Origin: Acidobacteriaceae bacterium
GTDB lineage: Bacteria; Acidobacteriota; Terriglobia; Terriglobales; Acidobacteriaceae
Assembly (NCBI GenBank): GCA_030039035.1
Contig: JASHQQ010000351.1
Coordinates: 1-64,000, forward strand
Direction: 5' to 3'
Length of the DNA: 64,000 nt
Shown here: in pieces, positions 38,484 to 51,297 of the stretch
Layout of the letters: every line of letters starts with the position of its first letter
Numbering within the stretch: the first letter of the stretch is position 1
Translations under genes and position numbers: made by a program
Notes under the pieces: generated by a model
The model's database searches: none
Seen by the model: only the letters and a program-made list of their open reading frames with translations
What the model was told of the DNA's origin: nothing

Positions 38484-41138
38484 ATGCCGTGTGCACCGAC
38501 GTCCTGTTATCGCCTGCAGCTCCACGCGGGATTCGCTTTTGCCGAAGCCATCGAGGCGGCACGATATCTGAAGCAACTGGGGATTTCGCATCTTTATTGC
38601 TCTCCGTACCTGCAATCGGTAAGAGGCAGCCTGCACGGCTACGATGTGGTCGATCCCCAGCGGGTGAATGCCGAGATTGGCGGCGAGGAGGGCCATCGCC
38701 GCTTCTGCGCCTCCCTGAGAGAGCTCGGCATGGGGCAGGTGCTCGACATTGTGCCCAACCATATGGCCACCGGACCGGAGAACAAGTACTGGTGGGATGT
38801 GCTGGAAAACGGCCCCTCGAGCCGGTTTGCCACATGGTTCGACATCGACTGGAATTCCGCCGAGGCGAAACTGCAGAACAAGGTCCTGCTTCCCGTCCTG
38901 GGCGACCAGTACGGGCGCGCGCTGAGCGCAGGCCAGCTCCCGATCGGATACGACGGCCAATCGTTCCAGGTGTCGTATATGGGGCTCGCTTTTCCGCTGT
39001 CGCCGCGTTCGCTGTCGATTCCTTTGAGCATGGCGGCGCAAACCATCCAGGCGCCGATTCTCAATTTCATCGCCGACAGCCTGGCGCGGCTTCTCTCGCC
39101 TGGCGCGCGCGACGAAGAAGCACAGGCAGCGCGTCATCGCGACAAGACCGTCCTTTACGAGCTGTTGCTGCGTTTTTGCCAGGAGAACCCGGGAGCGCCG
39201 GAAGCGATCAAGGAAGCCGTGGACGCGCTCAACCGCGACCACGATGCCCTGGATGCGATCCTGAATCTGCAGAATTATCGACTCGCCTACTGGCGCACCG
39301 CCGATCAGGAGCTGGGATACCGCCGTTTCTTCGACATCAACACCCTGGCGGGCGTGCGCGTGGAGCGATCCCGCGTCTTCCATGCGACCCATTCGCGGAT
39401 TCTGGCGTGGCTTCGCGATGGCGTCATCGATGGCGTACGCATCGATCACGTGGACGGACTGCGCGATCCGGAGGAGTACACGGTTCGCCTGCGCGGCAAC
39501 GCTCCCCAGGCATGGATACTGGCGGAGAAGATCCTGCAGCCGGGCGAATCGCTGCGCGCCAACTGGCCCATCGACGGCACCACCGGCTACGACTTCCTGA
39601 ACCTGTGCATGGCCTTGCTCGTCAATGGCGAGGGACTCCGCGAACTCGCAGAGATCTATGGGAAATTCGCCGGAGAATCGCAGGAATATGAAGGGCTTGT
39701 CCGCGCCAGAAAACTCGCCGTGCAGCAGGAGGCGCTGGGCAGCGAAGTGAATCGCCTGGCGCACCTGTTTGTGGGGATATGCGAGAACAACCGCGACCGG
39801 AGGGATTACACGCGTGCCGAGATACGGCGCGCAATCCGGGAAGTTGCCGCATGCTTCCGGGTCTACAGAACCTATGTGTCCCCGGAACGCGACGAGATTG
39901 CGGATGAGGACAGCGATGAAATCGGCCATGCCGTGGCCATGGCGAAGACGCGCCGAACGGACCTGGATCCGGACCTGTTCGACTTTATCGGCGATGTATT
40001 GTGGTTGCGCGCGCGCGGCGAGGTCGAAAGCGAATTCCTTTTGCGCTTTCAGCAGTTCACCTCTCCGGTGATGGCGAAGGGAATGGAAGACACGGTACTT
40101 TACTGCTTCAATCGTATGATCGGCCTGAACGAGGTGGGCGGCGCGCCGGACCGCGACGGGATCGCTCTTGAAGAGTTCCATGCGTACTGCGCCGCCGCGC
40201 TCGCCCGTCATCCGCAAACGATGAACACTCTCTCCACGCACGATACCAAGCGCTCCGACGACGTGCGGGCGCGGCTCGCGGTGTTGACGGAGATTCCCGG
40301 GCAATGGCGCCTGGCGCTGGGCCGGTGGTCGCGGATGAACAGGAGGTTCAGGACCGGGCAGTTTCCGGACCGCAACACGGAGTATTTCCTTTATCAGACA
40401 CTGGTCGGCGCCTGGCCGATTTCAAAGGAGCGGATCGCGGCGTACATGGAAAAGGCCGTGCGCGAGGCAAAACAATTCACGAGCTGGACGCAGCCCAACA
40501 AGGAGTTCGAAGATGCGCTGCGGACCTTTGTGGAACAGATCGTCGATTCACCACCGTTCATCGCGGAACTGGAGGCTTTTGTCGGCCGGGTTCTTCTGCC
40601 CGGCAGGATCAACAGCCTGACGCAGACCTTGATCAAATGCAGCGCGCCCGGCGTTCCCGACACGTACCAGGGAAGCGAACTGTGGGATCTTCGACTCGTG
40701 GATCCCGACAATCGCGGCCCGGTCGACTTTGCCCTGCGGCAGTCGATGCTGGAGGAGCTCAAAAGCGGGATGCCTGTCGAAGAGATCATGAAGAGGATGG
40801 ACAGCGGGATGCCAAAGCTTTGGGTTCTTTACAAGGCACTGCATCTGCGGAGGGAGAAGCCGGCCTGGTTCGATCGGACGGCCTCGTACAGGCCGCTGGC
40901 CGCGAGCGGCTCCAGAAAGGACCATCTCATTTCGTATCTTCGCGGCGAAGCGGTCGCAGTGGTCGCTCCCCGATGGAATGCCAGAACGGCTGGAAGCTTC
41001 GCATCGACAGCCGTGGAATTCCCGGACGGCGTCTGGAATCATCTGCTCACCGGCGAAGCGTTCAAAGGCGGCGCAATCCGGGCGCAGAACCTGTTCCGGC
41101 GATTTCCGGTGGCGCTTCTGGCAAAGAGCGGAGAGTAG
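38484..41138 (+). CDS. treY: Malto-oligosyltrehalose synthase
   Basis: TSCYRLQLHAGFAFAEAIEAARYLKQLGISHLYCSPYLQSVRGSLHGYDVVDPQRVNAEIGG, VLDIVPNHMA, DGVRIDHVDGLRDPEEY, LSTHDTKRSDDVRARL. Confidence 0.95.
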   Translation: MPCAPTSCYRLQLHAGFAFAEAIEAARYLKQLGISHLYCSPYLQSVRGSLHGYDVVDPQRVNAEIGGEEGHRRFCASLRELGMGQVLDIVPNHMATGPENKYWWDVLENGPSSRFATWFDIDWNSAEAKLQNKVLLPVLGDQYGRALSAGQLPIGYDGQSFQVSYMGLAFPLSPRSLSIPLSMAAQTIQAPILNFIADSLARLLSPGARDEEAQAARHRDKTVLYELLLRFCQENPGAPEAIKEAVDALNRDHDALDAILNLQNYRLAYWRTADQELGYRRFFDINTLAGVRVERSRVFHATHSRILAWLRDGVIDGVRIDHVDGLRDPEEYTVRLRGNAPQAWILAEKILQPGESLRANWPIDGTTGYDFLNLCMALLVNGEGLRELAEIYGKFAGESQEYEGLVRARKLAVQQEALGSEVNRLAHLFVGICENNRDRRDYTRAEIRRAIREVAACFRVYRTYVSPERDEIADEDSDEIGHAVAMAKTRRTDLDPDLFDFIGDVLWLRARGEVESEFLLRFQQFTSPVMAKGMEDTVLYCFNRMIGLNEVGGAPDRDGIALEEFHAYCAAALARHPQTMNTLSTHDTKRSDDVRARLAVLTEIPGQWRLALGRWSRMNRRFRTGQFPDRNTEYFLYQTLVGAWPISKERIAAYMEKAVREAKQFTSWTQPNKEFEDALRTFVEQIVDSPPFIAELEAFVGRVLLPGRINSLTQTLIKCSAPGVPDTYQGSELWDLRLVDPDNRGPVDFALRQSMLEELKSGMPVEEIMKRMDSGMPKLWVLYKALHLRREKPAWFDRTASYRPLAASGSRKDHLISYLRGEAVAVVAPRWNARTAGSFASTAVEFPDGVWNHLLTGEAFKGGAIRAQNLFRRFPVALLAKSGE

Positions 41139-41140
41139 GA

Positions 41141-42880
41141 ATGCATCGATTTGCGGTCTGGGCTCCATTTGCGAAGCGTATGTCAGTCCATGTGGACGGA
41201 GTGACACACGAAATGGAAGGACCCGATGCGCGTCAATGGTGGCGCCTTTCGGTTGGGGATGCAGGTCCCGGAACGGACTACGGCTTTCTCATCGACGATG
41301 ATCCGAAGATCCATCCGGATCCGCGCTCGATGTCGCAGCCAAATGGCGTGCACGGGCTGTCGCGGATTTACGATCACGAAGCCTTCTGCTGGACCGACGC
41401 GAAATTCCAGTCGCCTCCTTTGGCCAGCGGCATTGTTTACGAGGTGCACATCGGGACTTTTACGCCGGAAGGTACGCCGGATGCCGCAATTGCGAAGCTG
41501 GACCATCTGGTTGAACTCGGCGTGACCCATGTCGAGTTGATGCCCGTAGCCGCCTTCGACGGGGTTTACGGCTGGGGCTACGACGGCGTGGCGCTGTATG
41601 CCGTGCACCATCCGTACGGAGGTCCGGACGGATTGAAGCGCCTTGTCGACGCAGCGCATGCAAGGGGTCTGGCCGTGTTGCTCGATGTTGTCTACAACCA
41701 CTTCGGTCCGGCGGGGAGTTCGATCGGCAAGTTCGGACCCTATGTCACCGGGTTACACCAGACGCCCTGGGGCGGAGCGGTGAATCTCGAGAGTTACGGA
41801 TCGAACGAGGTGCGCCGGTTCTTCTGCGACAACGCGCTGATGTGGCTGCGCGACTTTCACATCGATGGGCTTCGTCTCGACGCGGTGCACGCATTCGTCG
41901 ACCGCTCGGCCATCCACTTCCTGGAACAGCTCAGCGAGGAGGTAAAGTCCCTGGAGGCGGCGCTGGCGCGCCGTCTCGTCCTCATCGCGGAGAGTGACCT
42001 GAACGATCCCCGCGTGGTTACGCCCCGTGAAGCGGGGGGATACGGCATCGACGCCCAATGGAGCGACGACTTCCATCATGCCCTCTTCGCCGTGCTCAAC
42101 CCGCACGAGAGAAAAGGGTACTACGCCGATTTCGGCTGCTTTGCCCATCTGGCCAAAGCGCTGGAGCACACCTTCGTGTACGACGGAATCTACTCGAACT
42201 ATCGAAGGCGCATTCACGGCCGTCCGGCCGGCGCGCTGTCGCCGCATCGATTCCTCGGGTACATTCAGACGCACGACCAGGTGGGAAATCGCGCGGTTGG
42301 CGACAGGATCAGCCACCTGGCCGGCATGGAGCGCGCCAAGGTCGCGGCGGCGATGGTTCTTCTCAGCCCCTTCGTTCCCATGCTGCTTCAGGGCGAGGAA
42401 TGGGCCGCGTCCACGCCGTTCCAATACTTTGCCGATCACCGCGATCCGGATCTGGCGCGCAGGGTCTCCGAGGGGAGGAAACGGGAGTTTTCGGCGTTCG
42501 GATGGGACCCCGAGTCGGTCCCCGACCCGGTCAGCAAGGAAACGTTTCAGGCGTCGAAGCTGAAGTGGGAAGAGGCGAGCGGCGAAAGACACGCGGAGAT
42601 GCTGGAATGGTACAAGGCGCTGATTCGTCTGAGACGGAGTACGCCTTGTCTCAACGATGGAGCCGCCGGCAGCACGCACGTATCTTACGATGAGGAAGAA
42701 AGATGGATCCGGCTGGAACGCGGAACCGTCACAGCGATCTGCAACCTCGGCGGGCAGGCGAAGGAGTTTTCTGTTCCTCGCGCCGGCAGCGTGGCGCTCG
42801 TTTCACGCAGCGGGACCGGGATTCGCGAGGATGCCGTGAATCTGCCGCCCGATACGGTCGTCGTAGTTTCGCACAATTGA
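41141..42880 (+). CDS. treZ: Malto-oligosyltrehalose trehalohydrolase
   Basis: VYEVHIGTFTPEGTPDAAIAKLDHLVELGVTHVELMPVAAFDG, VVYNHFGPAG, DGLRLDAVHAF, LQGEEWAASTPFQYFADH. Confidence 0.95.
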   Translation: MHRFAVWAPFAKRMSVHVDGVTHEMEGPDARQWWRLSVGDAGPGTDYGFLIDDDPKIHPDPRSMSQPNGVHGLSRIYDHEAFCWTDAKFQSPPLASGIVYEVHIGTFTPEGTPDAAIAKLDHLVELGVTHVELMPVAAFDGVYGWGYDGVALYAVHHPYGGPDGLKRLVDAAHARGLAVLLDVVYNHFGPAGSSIGKFGPYVTGLHQTPWGGAVNLESYGSNEVRRFFCDNALMWLRDFHIDGLRLDAVHAFVDRSAIHFLEQLSEEVKSLEAALARRLVLIAESDLNDPRVVTPREAGGYGIDAQWSDDFHHALFAVLNPHERKGYYADFGCFAHLAKALEHTFVYDGIYSNYRRRIHGRPAGALSPHRFLGYIQTHDQVGNRAVGDRISHLAGMERAKVAAAMVLLSPFVPMLLQGEEWAASTPFQYFADHRDPDLARRVSEGRKREFSAFGWDPESVPDPVSKETFQASKLKWEEASGERHAEMLEWYKALIRLRRSTPCLNDGAAGSTHVSYDEEERWIRLERGTVTAICNLGGQAKEFSVPRAGSVALVSRSGTGIREDAVNLPPDTVVVVSHN

Positions 42881-42913: not shown

Positions 42914-43669
42914 TTATTCGTGGCGTCCCATGCGGTAATCGAGATACAGAACATGCGCCTTGATCCGGTCGCCCGCATGGTAGCGCGGAAAATGCGCCAT
43001 CTTCAGCATGGCCACAATGGCACCGGGGTTCCCGTTGCTCCACTCGACAAGCTGACGCAGGACAGGCTCGAGATTTGAGAAACACAATCCCGTCCGGCGG
43101 GCCTCTCTCCGCGCAAATTCAAGAGCGACGGGCAGCGGAAACTCCTTCATTTCCAGCCGCTCCGATTTGCCGGCGCACATGGGCCGCAGGGCGCCGATGT
43201 CTTCCATGTGCGGGGTGCGAGCCACGAAAACGACCGGAGTGCGATCGAAGTAGTTGAGATCCTTGATCAGACCGGTTACGACACGGGATGGGCCGGCAAG
43301 ATGATCCAGGGCAAGAAGAAACGGCTGCTGTCCGAGAGCCCGCTGTACGATGCCCTTGAGAGATCCGGTGCCCGACGATGTGAAACCGGCGGGGAGATCG
43401 AGTCCGGGTTTTGCGACGCGGCGCAGCTCTTCAACGAGCGTGAGCAATAATTCGCGCGGAGATTTCACCTGCGGGGCAAAGAGGACGAGCGGTTGCGTCT
43501 GGACAAAGCTCCGCAGCAGGCGCGTCTTGCCGATCCCTTCCGGTCCGTAGACCAGCATGGATTTCCGTCTCAGCGCCTGCGCCTGCAATCGGGCCAATTC
43601 CCCGCTGCGCTCGACGATTGCGGCGTACTGCCCGGGATCGATGCCGCCGTTGACGGTGAGCGTGGCCAT
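42914..43669 (-). CDS. P-loop/AAA-type ATPase, last gene of the putative fluoride operon
   Basis: Walker A MLVYGPEGIGKTRLL; Walker B-like PFLLALDHLAG; VFVARTPH. Confidence 0.75.
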   Translation of the reverse strand: MATLTVNGGIDPGQYAAIVERSGELARLQAQALRRKSMLVYGPEGIGKTRLLRSFVQTQPLVLFAPQVKSPRELLLTLVEELRRVAKPGLDLPAGFTSSGTGSLKGIVQRALGQQPFLLALDHLAGPSRVVTGLIKDLNYFDRTPVVFVARTPHMEDIGALRPMCAGKSERLEMKEFPLPVALEFARREARRTGLCFSNLEPVLRQLVEWSNGNPGAIVAMLKMAHFPRYHAGDRIKAHVLYLDYRMGRHE

Positions 43670-43719
43670 GATGGAGCCTTTCGGGAGCGAAGCAGGGATA
43701 CGACAGGGTGAATTCGTTG

Positions 43720-43769
43720 CTCCCACCCCATGCGGCGGAAACAAAGACGGCGCAAGGATGAGGCACCGA
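43720..43769. repeat. Possible short intergenic repeat (cccaccccatgcggc ... gcgcaaggatgaggcacc)
   Basis: Resembles 28449..28508; lies between the GTPase stop and the ATPase start. Confidence 0.4.
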
Positions 43770-43773
43770 GGTG

Positions 43774-45546
43774 TTACATATTCACGAGGTCATTGCCCTG
43801 TACGAGGGCCGAAACCTCCTGTTCCAACCGGTTGAGCCGTTCCATGGCTGCCTGTACAGCCGGAGCTCCTTGTTCCCTGACCTTCCGCGCCCGGTCGAGC
43901 GCCTGCTCGGCGATGCGCCTGATTTCGTGCAGCAGCCTGCGGATCTCAACCTCCAGGCGATCCCGGCTTTCCTGAATGCGATTGAGGACGTCGTTTTGCA
44001 CGCGCGAGCTGTTCACCTCCAGAAGGCGCCGCAGAAGTTCCCGGGCGCCGTTCCCGATCAGCCTGCGTCCGCCTGCAAGCGCCAAAAAGACGTCGGCGAT
44101 CCAGCGCAACGGCGATGGAGGTTGCGCAGTTCCGATAAAGTCCTCGAATGTAAACCCCGATCGCACGCGGAAGCCTTTCTCCGGGTCCAGCGCATGGGGC
44201 ATACGCGCGAGTTCGCCGAGACCTGCATCGGCGAGCTTTTTCAAAAAGCTGTTGGCCATTTCCACGAACCGGAGGGCCACAGCCCGATATTGGCGCTCGC
44301 CCTCCAATTGCTCAAGTTGGAGCCAGGGAGCGACCTTGCGACGCGAGATCTCCTGGGCAAGGCGCATCAGCCGGCGACGGGAGTGCGGACCGAATCCGCG
44401 GGAGAGGGACTGCAAATTTCCATCGAATTCTCCTTCCGATTCCGCCCACGCGGAGCGGAAAAACTGCTGGCGCCTTTCCACAAGGAGATCCGAAATCCGC
44501 TGCTGCTCCGCCAGGAACAGGAAGCCCAGCTCGCGCATGGATCGCTCGGCCTCGGCGATCGTTTGCCTCATCAGCCCGATGCGCCGTTGGGATTCCCCGA
44601 TGGGCCGCTGAAGCGCGTCGCGTTCTTCACGGATCATGGCCAGCAATTGTTCGCCCAGGCGCTGCAGGCCCCGGTCGCAAGCGGCGCGAACAAGTTCACT
44701 GGCCGAGTCTTCCACCAGACGATGCAGACTTTCCAGCAGCCTGTCCCAATCCCTCAGCGGACCGCGGCCTTCCATCCGTTCGGTGGCGCTGACCTCGAAG
44801 ATCTGACCCATTGGGCGATGCAGCCGCTGCTCCAGAATTTCGCGGGTGAACCTTGCCGCGGCCGCACGTTCCGGATCGGTGGTGCGGTCGGATTTGTTGA
44901 TCACCAGGATCAGATCCTGCACCTGCCGGCTGGCGGATTCCACCAGCGCCAGTTCCTCGGCGGCAATGGGCGGATCGGCCCCGACGACGACCAATGCCGC
45001 GTCGATGTGAGGGATGAACGCCTGCGTGGTTGACGTATTTCCCATGAAGACCGAGCCCAGGCCCGGCGTGTCCACAAAACACATGCCGGAAGACAACAGC
45101 GGGCTGGGTACGAATACCTCAGCGCCTTCCACGGCCTTTTTGTTTTCGGGGTTTCGTTCTTCGCTGACGAACTCCCCCAGATCGGCAATGGCAACATCCT
45201 GCCAGGACCCGTCGCGCATGCGAACGCGCGCCTGAAGTTCGCCGCCAAAGCGGACCACGGTAGGCACGGCTGTAACCGGAACAAATCCGGTGGGAAGAAC
45301 CTGGCGGCCGACGAGGGCATTGAGCAGTGTGGATTTGCCCCGCTTGAACTGACCGACACAAGCGACATAGAAACGCCCTTCGGCAACCCGCGCGGCAAGT
45401 TCGCGGGCTTCATCGGCGACAGGCACGGCTCCAGGTTCCTGAGCCAGAGCGGCAAGATGCAACAGACGGGAGGCGCCATCCATATATCGGGATGTGTCGG
45501 CCGATGAGGCGCCGCAATCCTGCAATGCCGATCGACCGGAGGTCAT
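43774..45546 (-). CDS. Dynamin-like GTPase (bacterial DLP), copy 1
   Basis: G1 GQFKRGKST, G3 DTPGLG, G4 NKSD; long helical stalk-like C-terminus; ATGA overlap with the upstream DUF190 stop. Confidence 0.85.
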   Translation of the reverse strand: MTSGRSALQDCGASSADTSRYMDGASRLLHLAALAQEPGAVPVADEARELAARVAEGRFYVACVGQFKRGKSTLLNALVGRQVLPTGFVPVTAVPTVVRFGGELQARVRMRDGSWQDVAIADLGEFVSEERNPENKKAVEGAEVFVPSPLLSSGMCFVDTPGLGSVFMGNTSTTQAFIPHIDAALVVVGADPPIAAEELALVESASRQVQDLILVINKSDRTTDPERAAAARFTREILEQRLHRPMGQIFEVSATERMEGRGPLRDWDRLLESLHRLVEDSASELVRAACDRGLQRLGEQLLAMIREERDALQRPIGESQRRIGLMRQTIAEAERSMRELGFLFLAEQQRISDLLVERRQQFFRSAWAESEGEFDGNLQSLSRGFGPHSRRRLMRLAQEISRRKVAPWLQLEQLEGERQYRAVALRFVEMANSFLKKLADAGLGELARMPHALDPEKGFRVRSGFTFEDFIGTAQPPSPLRWIADVFLALAGGRRLIGNGARELLRRLLEVNSSRVQNDVLNRIQESRDRLEVEIRRLLHEIRRIAEQALDRARKVREQGAPAVQAAMERLNRLEQEVSALVQGNDLVNM

Positions 45547-45914
45547 TCCGCTCGCCCCGGGGGTGTCTTCTGCCCTTGTTCGGGAGTGCGCGAATAGCGA
45601 ATCACGTCCACACGGGACATGGCGATCAGGCCTTCCTGCACCATTTCGTCGAGGTGCGGAATCAGCTTTTCGATCTGCTCCTCCCTGTCGATGACAGTCA
45701 GCATGATGGGCGCATCTTTGGAGAACTTCCAATGACTGCCATGGTGAATCCTGGAGCTCGCCCCGTACCCTTCAATCCCCCGATACACGGTCGCGCCGGC
45801 CACTCCCAGTTCCATGCATCGGGAAACGATTGCCTCGTGCAGGGGCTTGCCGTTCCATTTGTCTCCCTCGCCGAAGTGAATGCGCAACATCCTGGCCTGA
45901 AACTGTTCCTTCAC
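45543..45914 (-). CDS. DUF190 protein (PII-like), single domain
   Basis: MLRIHFGEGDKWNGKPLHEAIVSRCMELGVAGATVYRGIEGYGASSRIHH...IEKLIPHLDEMVQEGLIAMSRVDVIRY. Confidence 0.9.
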   Translation of the reverse strand: MKEQFQARMLRIHFGEGDKWNGKPLHEAIVSRCMELGVAGATVYRGIEGYGASSRIHHGSHWKFSKDAPIMLTVIDREEQIEKLIPHLDEMVQEGLIAMSRVDVIRYSRTPEQGQKTPPGRAE

Positions 45915-46672
45915 GGTCGCGCCTCCGTTCCCGGAAACGTGCTGTCTGCCGACGTCCCTGCCGGATTCACATCCTGGGCGCGACAGGAGTACTTGATGAT
46001 GTCCACGTCGGAGAAAACAACCAGGCCTTCCTCCACCATCTGATCGACGAGGGGAAGAAAGGCGCGGAGCTTTTCCCCGGAGTCCACGGCCGAGAGCATG
46101 ATGGAGCAGTCGCGCGACAGGTGCAAAGCCTTGTCCTTGTGCACGCGACGATGCGCGCCGTAGCCGAGGATGCCGCGATAGACGGTGACTCCGGCAATGT
46201 CGTTGGCCCGCATGGCTTCGACAAGCGCCTGATAAAGGGGTTTGTCCTTCCAGCGATCCGATTCGCCGATATAGATCCTCATCATCTTGGCCCTGCCCTC
46301 CATCCGGACGTGAGCGGGAGGAGCAACCGTCTTCGGCTTCGAAACCTGGGCAGGCTTGGCAACCGTGGTCTCCTGGATCTCGATCATGCCGGTGCCCGCC
46401 AGTTCCTCAAGCTTGCCCAGAATCTCATTCACCTTTTCGGGCGTCTCGATGAACTCGATCTTGAGCGGCATGTGGTCAGAGATCTCGACGATGCTCGCCG
46501 AATGCATGTGATGATCGGCGCCGAATCCGGCGATGCCCTTCACGACCGTGGCCCCGGAAACGCCGCGATAGAAAAGAAAATCGAGAATGCCCGAGTACAC
46601 CGGAACGCCGCGGCGCCTGGACCCTTCGCTGACGTAGATTGAGACCTTGAGCGCTTTTCCCGCTTTCAGCAT
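45911..46672 (-). CDS. Two-domain DUF190 protein (PII-like)
   Basis: Domain 1 LKVSIYVSEGSRRRGVPVYSGILDFLFYRGVSGATVVKGIAGFG; domain 2 MRIYIGESDRWKDKPLYQALVEAMRANDIAGVTVYRGILGYGAHRRVHKDKALHLSRDCSIML. Confidence 0.9.
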   Translation of the reverse strand: MLKAGKALKVSIYVSEGSRRRGVPVYSGILDFLFYRGVSGATVVKGIAGFGADHHMHSASIVEISDHMPLKIEFIETPEKVNEILGKLEELAGTGMIEIQETTVAKPAQVSKPKTVAPPAHVRMEGRAKMMRIYIGESDRWKDKPLYQALVEAMRANDIAGVTVYRGILGYGAHRRVHKDKALHLSRDCSIMLSAVDSGEKLRAFLPLVDQMVEEGLVVFSDVDIIKYSCRAQDVNPAGTSADSTFPGTEARP

Positions 46673-46750
46673 CCACCCTCCCTGCTCCGCGACCTCGTAT
46701 TGATGAGATGTTATCGACGCCGGTCCGGCCGTTGATGGTTCAGCAGGTTC

Positions 46751-47128
46751 TCACCCCAGCACCTCGGCGAGAAGCGAGCCACACCAAACGGCGACAAGAC
46801 CAAGAAGCAGGCTGCCAACAGCGTAAAGCGCGGCGAGCAGAAAAGCCCCCGAGCGAAGATTCGACAGTGTTTCCCACTCGAAGGTCGAGAACGTGCTGTA
46901 GGCGCCCACAAAACCGACTGCGATGAGAAAACGCCAGGCCGTATTCAGTTCGGCGCGCCTGCCGAGCCACGTGAGCGCGAATCCGATGATGACGCAGGCG
47001 GTCATGTTGATGACGAACGTTCCGTAGGGGAACCGTGTGCCGAGGCGACCGGAGATGGTGGAGCCCAGCCAATAACGGGCGATCGAACCCAACGAACCTC
47101 CCACCGCGATATACAGGTATTTCTCCAA
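46751..47128 (-). CDS. crcB: Fluoride channel CrcB/FluC
   Basis: YLYIAVGGSLGSIARYWLGSTISGRLGTRFPYGTFVINMTACVIIGF...FLIAVGFVGAYSTFSTFEWETLSNL; start uncertain (TTG 47128; track opens at 47179). Confidence 0.92.
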   Translation of the reverse strand: MEKYLYIAVGGSLGSIARYWLGSTISGRLGTRFPYGTFVINMTACVIIGFALTWLGRRAELNTAWRFLIAVGFVGAYSTFSTFEWETLSNLRSGAFLLAALYAVGSLLLGLVAVWCGSLLAEVLG

Positions 47129-47145
47129 AATGCGAACCCCCCTGT

Positions 47146-49206
47146 TCAGCTTCGGATCTCTGCCGTCTCGGCGTTCCACTTCATCAGCCGCGAAAGATCG
47201 TTCCCGAGTTCCGGCGAAACGGTCCCATCGCCGGATGGGCCGCGCATCCTGTTCAGTTGGGCGCGATACGCATCAGCGTGGGAGCCAACCATGGCCTGCA
47301 TTCCACGAGTCGTGTGCGCGCTCCATTGCCTGAGAGCGCCTCCGTAACGATGCAGTTCCACCCTGAAGGAATCGCCGAACGCCGCGCGCAGACTGCGCCG
47401 GGCAAGCGCCATTGCCGCGCTCCGCCCCAGCCATCTCCACAGGCGCGCGCCCACCGGCCCGGGAATCGCCGCCATTTCAAATCGGGGCGCATCGCGAAGG
47501 AGGACGCCGGCTTCCTCGAGGGATGGCGCATCCGGCCGGTTCATTTGTTCCGCAATCGCGTTGAGGCCGTCAACCGCCTCCCGGATCGCGCCCCGTGTCC
47601 GCACGAGGGCGCGATCCACATGCTTCTGAATTACGTCCTGAGTCCACTCCGCCAGCACCGGCGATCCGATTCGCCTTGCCGGGCCGGCATGGATGTGGGC
47701 GACGGCCATTTCCGCCAGCTCGTCGACGATCAGCTCCGGCCGCTCGCCCAGCTCAAAGAACGCGTGATCGAGATGAGTGCGCTGCTCGCCGATCTCGCCG
47801 CTGATATGGCGCAGCCTGTCTTCGATTTGCTTCGCATCGACTTCCGGAAGAGCTTCCCGCCTGCTGCTCCGGAGCAGCGTCTCAAGCGTGGAGATCACCG
47901 ACTCGCGCAATGCGCCGATCTTGCGGGCGATGGATGCGTCCCGCAGGCTGCGCGCCTGATGAAACCGGGGAAGCAATTCCTGCCCAAAGAAGCGATCCAC
48001 CAACGTCGCATGACTGGCAAGCGCACTGACCGGCTCAATGTGAATGCCGAGTCCCAGTTCGTTCCGGACCTGGGCTTCAATGTAACCGGTGACTCGTCCA
48101 AGGTCCGGATCCGTCAACAGATCGGACTTGCTCAAAAGGACGAGCGCAGGTATTCCGCCTTCGAGGAGAAGGCGCAGGGTGCCAATATCCTCGTCATTGA
48201 GAGTCGCGCCCGCGTCGATCAGCAGGATGGCAAGGTCACACGCCGGAAGATAGGCCATGGTTTCCGCGGCGCCCCTTCTGGCGAGGGAGCCGAGTCCGGG
48301 GGTGTCCACGAGCACAATGCCCTCGCGCAGACGCGCGGAAGGTACCTCCACCACCGCGCGGATCACGTTGCGTTGATTGCCGGGGTTGCCGTCCTCGCTC
48401 ACGAGGTTCCGGAACCCGTCGATCGACACTTCTTCAGTACGTCCGCTTGCGAAGCCGACCTCGGCGCGCAGCGTGGCGCCGTAGCGCAGCCGTGTTGGAA
48501 CCGCGGTGATCGGGTTGACTCCAACGGGCAGCACATCGGTCCCAAGGAGAGCATTGAGCAGCGACGATTTTCCGCTGCTGACCCGGCCGAACAATGCCAC
48601 CTCAAGGTTGTTGTCCTCCAGACGGGAAGCAAGCGAGGCAATCCGCGAGCGAAACTCGACGAGGCCGTGCCGCGTGACTACAGCTTCAATCGTCTCCAGA
48701 AGCGCGACGTCGCAGCCTGCGTGCTCCAGTTTTTTCAGACGGGATTCGAGACTGGTTCCCAGCTCCTGGCGCAGGTAGCGTTCCATGCTTTGCGCAACGG
48801 AGCGAAGCTCGTGAACCACGCCGTTAAGTTCCTCAGCCACATCGTCGGGAACAACGCCCGAGCCGCGCATGTAGCCCGGCTTCAATTCCTCGATCGCGAT
48901 ATCGATGAACGCAAGGTGGGTGAGAGCGGCGCGTGTCGCCGGAATCCGTGGCGGATCGGGGGCGATTCCCTGCCAGGCGAGAGCGCGCAGAAGCTGTTCG
49001 CGGATGCGGCGAATATGATCCTCCACCACGCGTGTCTGCGCCGGAGTCACATCGACGAGGTGCCTGGGAAACGGGGATTCCGACGCAGTCTCATGGAGAA
49101 CCTGTTCCACTTCGCACAGGAGTTTGTCGATGTAGGAGCAGGTCACGCCCAGCCGCCGGCGCTGGGCATCGTTGAGCTCTCCATGTTGCGGCGTTTCCAT
49201 GCTCAT
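47146..49206 (-). CDS. Dynamin-like GTPase (bacterial DLP), copy 2
   Basis: G1 GRVSSGKSSLLNALLG, VNPITAVPTRLRYG, G3 VDTPGLG, G4 LSKSD; long coiled/helical regions both sides. Confidence 0.85.
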   Translation of the reverse strand: MSMETPQHGELNDAQRRRLGVTCSYIDKLLCEVEQVLHETASESPFPRHLVDVTPAQTRVVEDHIRRIREQLLRALAWQGIAPDPPRIPATRAALTHLAFIDIAIEELKPGYMRGSGVVPDDVAEELNGVVHELRSVAQSMERYLRQELGTSLESRLKKLEHAGCDVALLETIEAVVTRHGLVEFRSRIASLASRLEDNNLEVALFGRVSSGKSSLLNALLGTDVLPVGVNPITAVPTRLRYGATLRAEVGFASGRTEEVSIDGFRNLVSEDGNPGNQRNVIRAVVEVPSARLREGIVLVDTPGLGSLARRGAAETMAYLPACDLAILLIDAGATLNDEDIGTLRLLLEGGIPALVLLSKSDLLTDPDLGRVTGYIEAQVRNELGLGIHIEPVSALASHATLVDRFFGQELLPRFHQARSLRDASIARKIGALRESVISTLETLLRSSRREALPEVDAKQIEDRLRHISGEIGEQRTHLDHAFFELGERPELIVDELAEMAVAHIHAGPARRIGSPVLAEWTQDVIQKHVDRALVRTRGAIREAVDGLNAIAEQMNRPDAPSLEEAGVLLRDAPRFEMAAIPGPVGARLWRWLGRSAAMALARRSLRAAFGDSFRVELHRYGGALRQWSAHTTRGMQAMVGSHADAYRAQLNRMRGPSGDGTVSPELGNDLSRLMKWNAETAEIRS

Positions 49207-49302: not shown

Positions 49303-49740
49303 TCAGTGGACAATCATGACCGGACAATGCGCGTAGCGCAGCACGCGCTCGGAGTTCGATCCGATCATCCAGCGGTGCAGAATCGTGTGGCTGCGCTTGC
49401 CCATCACGATCACGCTGGCTTGCATCTGGTCTGCCATGTGAATGATCTGCTCCGCGGGGTGACCGACGACGATTTCGGTTTCGAGCTCAATCTCCTTCTG
49501 CCTGGCAATTTCCCGGATCGCGACGTAGCTCTTCTCGTATTTCTCGCGCGCGTCGTCGACGACGGCGTGGAACTCGGCGCTTTCCGCCGGTTCGGGAGGG
49601 CGGATCACGGAGATGACGAAGAGTCTGGCTTTAAGATCGCCGGCCATCGACAAGGCAACATTCATGGCGTGCTCGGAATGAGGCGACCGGTCGTAGGCAA
49701 CGAGGATTCTCTGAAATCCGACAAAGACCGTGCTTCCCAT
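49303..49740 (-). CDS. Universal stress protein (UspA family)
   Basis: RILVAYDRSPHSEHAMNVAL...EIVVGHPAEQIIHMADQMQASVIVMGKRSHTILHRWMIGSNSERVLRYAHCPVMIV. Confidence 0.92.
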   Translation of the reverse strand: MGSTVFVGFQRILVAYDRSPHSEHAMNVALSMAGDLKARLFVISVIRPPEPAESAEFHAVVDDAREKYEKSYVAIREIARQKEIELETEIVVGHPAEQIIHMADQMQASVIVMGKRSHTILHRWMIGSNSERVLRYAHCPVMIVH

Positions 49741-49749
49741 CGTTCCCTC

Positions 49750-50967
49750 CTAAGCCTCTTCCGCGGCAGCGGCCTGCTGCGCGGGTTGTTCCGCGGTCCT
49801 GGACGCGTGCGGATGCGTATGGGGAAGAAGATGCCGGGGAAGAAAAAATGCATTGGCGATCATGGTGAGAATCACCGCGCTGGCGATCACCGTTCCCACG
49901 AGAAACGAGTATTGCGCCTGGGTGATGATGTGGTGATTGAGGCCGAAGAGCGAGGAGATGGTGCCGAACGTGAGGCCCGTCGACATCATCAGCGTGTAGT
50001 AGGCTCCCGCGGAACCGTCGTACCGGTGAGCGCGAACGGCGGGATAGACCGCAACGGCCTTCGAGAGCGACTTGGCCATGAAAAGAATCAGCAGAACCAG
50101 GGGAGCGGCAACCAGCGCCGGCACCGATACGAACGATCCGGCACGGATGAAGTAGAACGGCGTGAGCAATCCGAAGGTGAGAGTACGCAGGCGGCGAACG
50201 AGCGCGTGGTCCTTGCCGACGGTGCCGGCGAGCACCATGCCGATGAGGTAGGCGGGGAGAACCGCTTCGCTTCCCGCCCACACGGCCAGTCCGCCGAGCG
50301 CGAACAAAAGGAAGAGAAGATACTTGGCTTCAAGTTCAGACACCCGGCCGCCATATTTCCTGAAGAACCACGGCGTGAGAAACGGAAGGATGGCAAATGC
50401 CGCGGCCGATACACCCACGAAGACCAGCGTCCTGACGGTGAACGGCGAGAAGATCAGGCCGAGCGCGATCACCGTTCCCAGGTCGTTGATGAAGCAGGCG
50501 GCAAGAATCGATTTTCCGTATTCGGTGACGTTGAATCCAAGTTCGAGCATCACGGCATAAACAACGGCAACCGAGGTTGTCGAAAGGGCGACACCCGCAA
50601 GCCAACTGGGCATGATGGACCAGTGCAGGAGGAAACGGGCGATGGCCGTGCAACCAAGGAACGGCCCGAAGAATCCCGCCAGCCCCACGGCCGACGCTTC
50701 ACGCCATTTGGTCCTGAAGATGGCCGGATCCAGCTCCGCGCCGGCCAGAAACGTGAGCACGATGGCGCCCGTTCCGGCGAGAAAGGTGATCCACTGCGTG
50801 TTGCCTTGCAGACCACTGGTGCCCAGCATGACGCCGATGACCAGTTGCGCGACCGTGCCGACCACGATTTCGGAGAGCGCCGTCGAGATCCTGAACCAGA
50901 TCGCGAGCAGCGTGGCGACCAATGCCAATCCCACCCACAAGGCAGAAAGGGCCCATGCGTTTGTCAT
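49750..50967 (-). CDS. Cation:proton antiporter, CPA2/Kef-like
   Basis: About 12 TM segments; SEIVVGTVAQLVIGVMLG, FLAGAELDPAIFRTKWREASAVGLAGFFGPFLG, ALSTTSVAVVYAVMLE, NDLGTVIALGL. Confidence 0.9.
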   Translation of the reverse strand: MTNAWALSALWVGLALVATLLAIWFRISTALSEIVVGTVAQLVIGVMLGTSGLQGNTQWITFLAGTGAIVLTFLAGAELDPAIFRTKWREASAVGLAGFFGPFLGCTAIARFLLHWSIMPSWLAGVALSTTSVAVVYAVMLELGFNVTEYGKSILAACFINDLGTVIALGLIFSPFTVRTLVFVGVSAAAFAILPFLTPWFFRKYGGRVSELEAKYLLFLLFALGGLAVWAGSEAVLPAYLIGMVLAGTVGKDHALVRRLRTLTFGLLTPFYFIRAGSFVSVPALVAAPLVLLILFMAKSLSKAVAVYPAVRAHRYDGSAGAYYTLMMSTGLTFGTISSLFGLNHHIITQAQYSFLVGTVIASAVILTMIANAFFLPRHLLPHTHPHASRTAEQPAQQAAAAEEA

Positions 50968-51012
50968 GGAACCAGGCTCCTTCAGTTGTGTTCAGGGATC
51001 GCTGGCGGGAAT

Positions 51013-51043
51013 GACTCCGCAACAGGATTCCCTGTCAGGAGTC
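51013..51043 (-). promoter_or_regulatory. Candidate expression-platform hairpin overlapping the riboswitch 3' strand
   Basis: Minus strand GACTCC-tga-CAGG-gaat-CCTG-ttgc-GGAGTC: perfect 6-bp plus 4-bp inverted repeats; GACTCC is also the pseudoknot strand. Confidence 0.6.
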
Positions 51044-51140
51044 ATCATCTGCCCGGCCTGTCGACCACCCCGGCGACCTTGACCCGTCGCCGGGATCCCG
51101 AAAGATGCGGGACAGCGGTTAAAGGTGAACTCCCTCACCT
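51031..51140 (-). ncRNA. Fluoride (crcB-motif) riboswitch
   Basis: Minus-strand read: AGGTG-AGGGAGTT-CACCT-TTAACCG-CTGTCC...GGGCAG-ATGATGACTCCTG. P1 AGGTG/CACCT, CTGTCC/GGGCAG stem, pseudoknot GGAGTT/GACTCC, and TGATGACTCCT agree with the crcB consensus as I recall it; located 5' of an antiporter/crcB operon. Confidence 0.85.
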
Positions 51141-51297
51141 CAACGTTGAGTGAATCGTAGGAGCCTGAGCCGCCAAAGTCAAGTAACCACGGAGATACAG
51201 GCTGCCGGTCATTTGAAGGGTCTTAATTCGAAACACCACCCGGCGTGTCGCGCCCAGGCGGACATTCCTTGTGCAGCGATCAACACTCACACGATTC

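Follow-up and report, generated by a model that had tools for sequence, protein, structure and literature searches.

A Fluoride Riboswitch with an Enlarged P3 Loop and a Putative Hairpin-Exchange Platform Ahead of an Acidobacterial Operon

A Riboswitch in the Leader of an Eight-Gene Operon

We analyzed a stretch of 64,000 nucleotides from an Acidobacteriaceae bacterium (hereafter the window) and found a complete crcB-type aptamer on its minus strand, at 51140-51037. Judged from its sequence and from its orthologs, the element is a genuine fluoride riboswitch and a structural variant of the known class. We propose, with a probability of roughly 0.78, that this fluoride-sensing riboswitch switches on a fluoride-resistance operon by an exchange between two hairpins, P4 and P5. 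When fluoride is absent, the strand GGAGUCAU would capture the 3' pseudoknot strand AUGACUCC in P4, leaving the aptamer broken and expression low. With fluoride present and bound via Mg2+, the aptamer would keep AUGACUCC in its pseudoknot, helped by the contact between positions 6 and 38, and P4 would be blocked; the downstream RNA would then fold into P5, and the operon would be expressed. We infer that fluoride is the ligand, that the switch works in the ON direction and that its last step is translational; ligand and direction are assigned by analogy, because both are established knowledge for the RF01734 family.

Identity of the Aptamer

The element was compared with the Rfam Fluoride model, RF01734. 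The match extended over model positions 1-64, which is the full length (window 51029-51148, minus strand, 33.5 bits, E = 1.1 × 10−7), and its alignment carried 58 inserted nucleotides, all in the P3 loop. The gathering score of the model is 34. Because the riboswitch scores 0.5 bit below this cut-off, the gathering-level Rfam scan of the whole 64,000-nt window listed nothing. Several orthologs at the same antiporter gene exceed the cut-off, reaching 36.6-41.2 bits. An earlier note on this DNA had counted the lack of a match above the gathering threshold as a refutation; taken to the letter this applies by half a bit, but not in substance, given the scores of the orthologs.

P1 (51123..51140) is formed by AGGTG (51140-51136) and CACCT (51127-51123), and a UA/CG double change was seen in this stem among the orthologs. 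The P1 loop AGGGAGTT (51135-51128) holds A6, G7 and G8, followed by the 5' pseudoknot strand, and the pseudoknot consists of five pairs between 51132-51128 and 51043-51039, the last being U-G. The conserved joining segment AACCG (51116..51120) lies within TTAACCG. The outer six pairs of P3 (51049..51115) join CTGTCC (51115-51110) to GGGCAG (51054-51049) with one G-U, and this six-pair stem is paired in 99% of the cells of 38 orthologs. The 3' core, TGATGACTCCTG in DNA or UGAUGACUCCUG (51036..51047), includes U38, A40, the 3' pseudoknot strand and U48, and doubles as the 5' strand of P4. P1, the pseudoknot, AACCG, P3 and UGAUGACUCC / UGAUGACUCCU were all present and aligned to RF01734. The elements named in the earlier note (P1, its loop, the pseudoknot, TTAACCG, CTGTCC/GGGCAG and TGATGACTCCTG) were thus each recovered on the minus strand. 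The element departs from the Rfam consensus in two respects: position 7 has G for U, and P3 has a G-A apposition at its base.

The Operon and Its Orthologous Leaders

Eight co-directional genes run from 50967 to 42914 on the minus strand, with the riboswitch leader in front. Gene 1 encodes an antiporter of the CPA2-type Na+/H+ exchanger family (49750..50967; PF00999, 1.3 × 10−28). It is followed by genes for a universal stress protein, Usp (49303..49740; PF00582), a dynamin-like GTPase A (47146..49206; PF00350), CrcB of the fluoride channel family (46751..47179; PF02537, 1.2 × 10−26), a two-domain DUF190 protein (45911..46672; PF02641), another DUF190 protein (45543..45914; PF02641), a dynamin-like GTPase B (43774..45732 as listed, with the true start probably further in; PF00350) and, at the end of the run, an AAA ATPase (42914..43744), whose matches to AAA_16 and AAA_22 are weak and below the curated cut-offs. 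The next open reading frame (40304-42880) has the opposite direction. The eight-gene operon claimed in the earlier note is upheld, as is its placing of the element in the leader of a CPA2 antiporter gene with crcB in the same run; the leader sits 5' of fluoride-resistance genes, with antiporter and CrcB in one operon.

Genome contigs were scanned with the antiporter, and 80 loci were kept, over half of them from Acidobacteria MAGs. About 40 of the 80, from Acidobacteriia, carry the aptamer at the same place, its 3' core lying some 80 nt upstream of the antiporter start. In relatives, leaders of this type are also found ahead of crcB, and wherever the gene next to a leader of the clade type was identified, it belonged to the operon set, chiefly the antiporter or CrcB. 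The RF01734 match, the orthologous leaders at the same gene and these crcB leaders bear out the earlier identification as a fluoride riboswitch. Many Acidobacteriia have the gene set after the antiporter, in a changed order or with members missing, and part of it is kept there in Nitrospirae, Rokubacteria and Proteobacteria. The two dynamin-like GTPases, often together with the AAA ATPase (window 42914-49206, minus strand), are recurring members of this fluoride operon in Acidobacteriia.

A search of 60 related genomes with RF01734 gave matches in 46, above the cut-off in 42. Many riboswitches can occur in one genome, with up to nine matches (G020:C317, G014:C438, G022:C225, G006:C246, G042:C12), and such genomes contain divergent and tandem pairs, for example G020:C317 7492-7562 and 7645-7713 on one strand. 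The genome of the window itself has further matches, two of them above the cut-off (54.8 and 39.8 bits), and a second P4-type copy with a short P3 loop (C83, L002). Two other kinds of element were observed, each with a copy there. The first, at C83:4196-4240 (L006) and also at the related loci L060, L061, L065 and L138, resembles a fluoride aptamer with U6-A38; its anti-pseudoknot strand GGAGGAGUCAUG appears to hold the Shine-Dalgarno (SD) sequence and start codon of a gene. The reading frame at L006 resembles dynamin-like GTPase A, giving an apparent second switch within a fluoride operon; no switch of this type is found in the operon of the window. The second, at C348:4315-4404 (L004) and also at L051-L056 and L196, is a subtype with ACCCC as the 3' pseudoknot strand and A7; the next reading frame at L004 begins MRIVVISDIHAN and is metallophosphoesterase-like by its start.

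A Proposed Exchange between the P4 and P5 Hairpins

P4, the putative anti-aptamer hairpin (51011..51045), pairs AUGACUCC (51045-51038) with GGAGUCAU (51018-51011) and has an inner stem ACAGG/CCUGU. Its stems are paired in 96-99% of the cells of 38 orthologs, with some double changes. The P4 loops, CAGGGA, GCGGAU, GCGGAA, AGGAUUC and AUGAU, generally match, by complementarity, a strand located 3' of them (UCCCUG, AUCCGC, UUCCGC, GAAUCCU and AUCAU, respectively). In the window this second pairing, P5 (50993..51034), joins CAGGGA (51034-51029) to UCCCUG (50998-50993) with an inner CUG/CAG. Since GGAGUCAU sits in the P5 loop, P4 and P5 are mutually exclusive.

The P5 pairing was evaluated by an alignment-free cognate test, in which the energy of hybridising a loop to the downstream strand of its own sequence was compared with that obtained with the strands of others, each loop type being represented once (n = 22). 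The cognate energy was −14.65 kcal/mol versus −11.17 kcal/mol for permuted pairs (z = −6.5, 0 of 20,000 permutations). Controls in which the downstream strand was letter-shuffled or reversed were null, and each of two clades alone gave the signal (P = 0.0045 and 0.00005). In a structure-blind MAFFT alignment of 36 platforms, the nine P5 pairs, which had been picked after inspection of the sequences, contained 21 double-change cells, where shuffles gave 7.9 ± 2.4 (0 of 500), a shuffle-based count that kinship can inflate; the covariation score on the same alignment was 0.293, and slid versions did not exceed 0.161. The positive within-clade tests and the negative test of the SD by the same method speak against the choice of pairs and kinship as the cause. 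The first count came out weak: it used alignment A1, in which MAFFT had offset the two clades.

ViennaRNA folds of nine leaders were also considered. When the pseudoknot was imposed, P5 appeared in six (window, L058, L061, L094, L101 and L110); unconstrained, P4 appeared in seven, L094 and L110 being the exceptions. An extension of P4 into P3 (GCCGG/CCGGC) is complementary in many leaders, with covariation not beyond conservation (z = −0.55). Pairing and covariation thus support a platform that may alternate between P4 and P5 in this clade. The earlier note was right about the identity of the element and about the extended P3; it does not mention the expression platform, in which the more informative novelty lies.

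The P3 Extension

The two strands of P3 enclose 55 nt in the window (51055..51109, minus strand) versus 7-16 nt in the orthologous leaders compared. This loop contains a CCCGGCGAC/GTCGCCGGG hairpin and an insertion of roughly 40 nt that is lacking in those leaders. The closest ortholog, L058, whose antiporter has about 90% protein identity, has the P3 CTGTCC-CATCCAATAGGCT-GGACAG with a 13-nt loop, and the extension is therefore considered a lineage-specific insertion. None of the other CPA2 leaders examined has it, and the insert itself is without comparative support. When folded in isolation, the extended P3 forms a single rod (−38 kcal/mol, z = −3.55) that is capped by the CCCGGCGAC/GTCGCCGGG hairpin. 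A CCCG/CGGG hairpin overlaps the 5' strand of P3 and is not formed in this best fold. Thus, of the long P2/P3 extension described in the earlier note, the P3 part stands and P2 is not extended; of its two hairpins only CCCGGCGAC/GTCGCCGGG was recovered; and its expanded variant holds for P3, as an insertion confined to a single lineage. A mobile repeat was considered as the origin of the insert and rejected: the 64-nt stretch has one other strong match in the genome, 27 nt at 93%, which lies in a different hairpin.

Insertions at other sites were found in relatives: a P2 hairpin between P1 and AACCG in L038, L040, L041, L042, L043 and L090, another P3 hairpin, unrelated to the insertion of the window, in L039 before crcB, and an insertion in the P4 loop in L178. 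The stem loop enlarged by the P3 insertion is of variable length in the family, and sensing is probably left intact. The expanded P3 offers a natural case of the place at which this aptamer accepts an insertion, and such a site is of use in the design of sensors.

Position 7 and the 6-38 Contact

The aptamer loop of the window begins AGG, not AUG. Among 123 distinct aptamers collected, those with the platform of the clade have A (54), U (15), G (14) or C (7) at position 7; U was found in 28 of 33 aptamers with other platforms. Since all four bases occur in the clade, G7 is normal for it and not a sign of damage.

A scan with neither base fixed showed that the tertiary 6-38 contact, which is A-U in the solved structure, swaps as a pair, with A-U in 78, U-A in 13 and G-C in 8 aptamers and three exceptions among 102. 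The related loci concerned are L023, L026, L028, L029, L060, L061, L065, L093, L095, L096, L100, L101, L103, L106, L109, L110, L111, L114 and L138, together with L006 in the genome of the window. Rfam may already contain such variants, since a number of them exceed its cut-off. The freedom at position 7 and the 6-38 swap in relatives may serve as a probe of the requirements of the binding pocket.

The Output Step and Alternative Explanations

A candidate sigma-70-type promoter, TTGACT-17-TACGAT (51154..51182, minus strand), was located by a consensus scan and ends 14 nt before P1; one was found against 0.0 expected in shuffles, which by itself is no evidence of function. An SD-like GGAG (50977..50980, minus strand) lies 12 nt past P5. 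The search for terminators returned 0 terminator-like sites, and no U-run follows P4 or P5 in the window or in the Acidobacteriia leaders. Outgroup leaders of the same antiporter gene (L112, L125, L127 and L131) end in GGAGUUUUU terminators. Imposing the pseudoknot lowered the cost of opening the SD from 8.0 to 4.3 kcal/mol in the window; the mean change over 39 leaders was small (5.6 to 4.8 kcal/mol). Masking of the SD by the 3' strand of P5 is not supported, the cognate test giving z = +0.9 and no covariation with the ribosome-binding site. Because a terminator or U-tract is missing in either state, our first choice, and most likely the output step, is initiation of translation at this SD downstream of P5, Rho being its main rival. 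According to that rival, the same riboswitch would have a transcriptional output: P4, or RNA exposed by P4, would promote Rho-dependent or U-tract-less termination, and P5 would prevent it. Such an output would accord with the covariation result for the SD and with the same P4/P5 platform being kept before crcB, where the start codon is some 50 nt more distant. However, the window leader has no terminator-like site, and in antiporter leaders P5 lies at an almost fixed distance from the start codon, so that we regard a transcriptional output as unlikely.

The remaining alternatives question the element itself. The insertion and G7 could have turned the copy in the window into a dead or fluoride-insensitive relic, with the operon constitutive or expressed from elsewhere, and both the unique 55-nt P3 loop and the second P4-type copy (C83, L002) with its short loop would fit this. 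However, the copy has kept an intact core and the complementarity of P4 and P5, its extended P3 has a strong fold, and conserved orthologs have A, G, C or U at position 7; we therefore find a relic improbable. That the element is a chance resemblance or an unrelated leader structure, as the empty gathering-level scan might suggest, is scarcely credible: the match has nearly all core nucleotides at E = 1.1 × 10−7, the runner-up Rfam matches have E = 1.1 or weaker, and the ortholog set, with its orthologous position and fluoride genes across genera, contradicts it. A functional fluoride riboswitch acting through P4/P5 exchange remains our preferred reading. More tentatively, this leader type may represent an Acidobacteriia subtype that uses P4/P5 exchange with neither an intrinsic terminator nor direct masking of the SD, in which U7 is dispensable and insertions in side stems are tolerated or add a contact.

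Comparison with Known Systems

Published work describes the aptamer with its tertiary pairs A6-U38 and A40-U48, platforms with terminators and the existence of translational variants (PMC2864571, PMC11586693, PMC8004769, PMC13273304), and in some variants the switching stem extends through P3 (PMC13273304). A P5-type platform, or any platform from Acidobacteria, was not found described in the accessible papers that were searched. Fluoride riboswitch platforms have been detailed mainly for terminators, and the P4/P5 exchange would be a covariation-backed alternative. The leaders of the same gene also suggest that one aptamer can be coupled to different outputs.

With the crcB motif aptamer (RF01734; Weinberg 2010, PMC2864571; Thermotoga petrophila, Bacillus cereus) the element shares P1, the five-pair pseudoknot, AACCG, P3, the UGAUG-ACUCC-U core, the A6/U38 and A40/U48 positions and its place in the 5' leader of fluoride-resistance genes; it differs in its 55-nt P3 loop, in G instead of U at position 7 and in the G-A with which P3 begins at its base. 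Fluoride riboswitches that act on transcription through an intrinsic terminator (PMC13273304, PMC11077080) likewise use a downstream strand that captures the 3' pseudoknot strand without ligand. However, the window leader has no U-tract, and P4 has a competitor in P5, a second hairpin that covaries. Like the translational fluoride riboswitches of Pseudomonas syringae and Burkholderia pseudomallei, so named in PMC13273304, it has no intrinsic terminator. An SD-like sequence inside the anti-pseudoknot strand was seen in the genome of the window at C399 and C83:4196. In the window leader the anti-pseudoknot strand and the SD are distinct, the former about 30 nt upstream of the latter with P5 between them, which probably sets it apart from the translational riboswitches of those two species.
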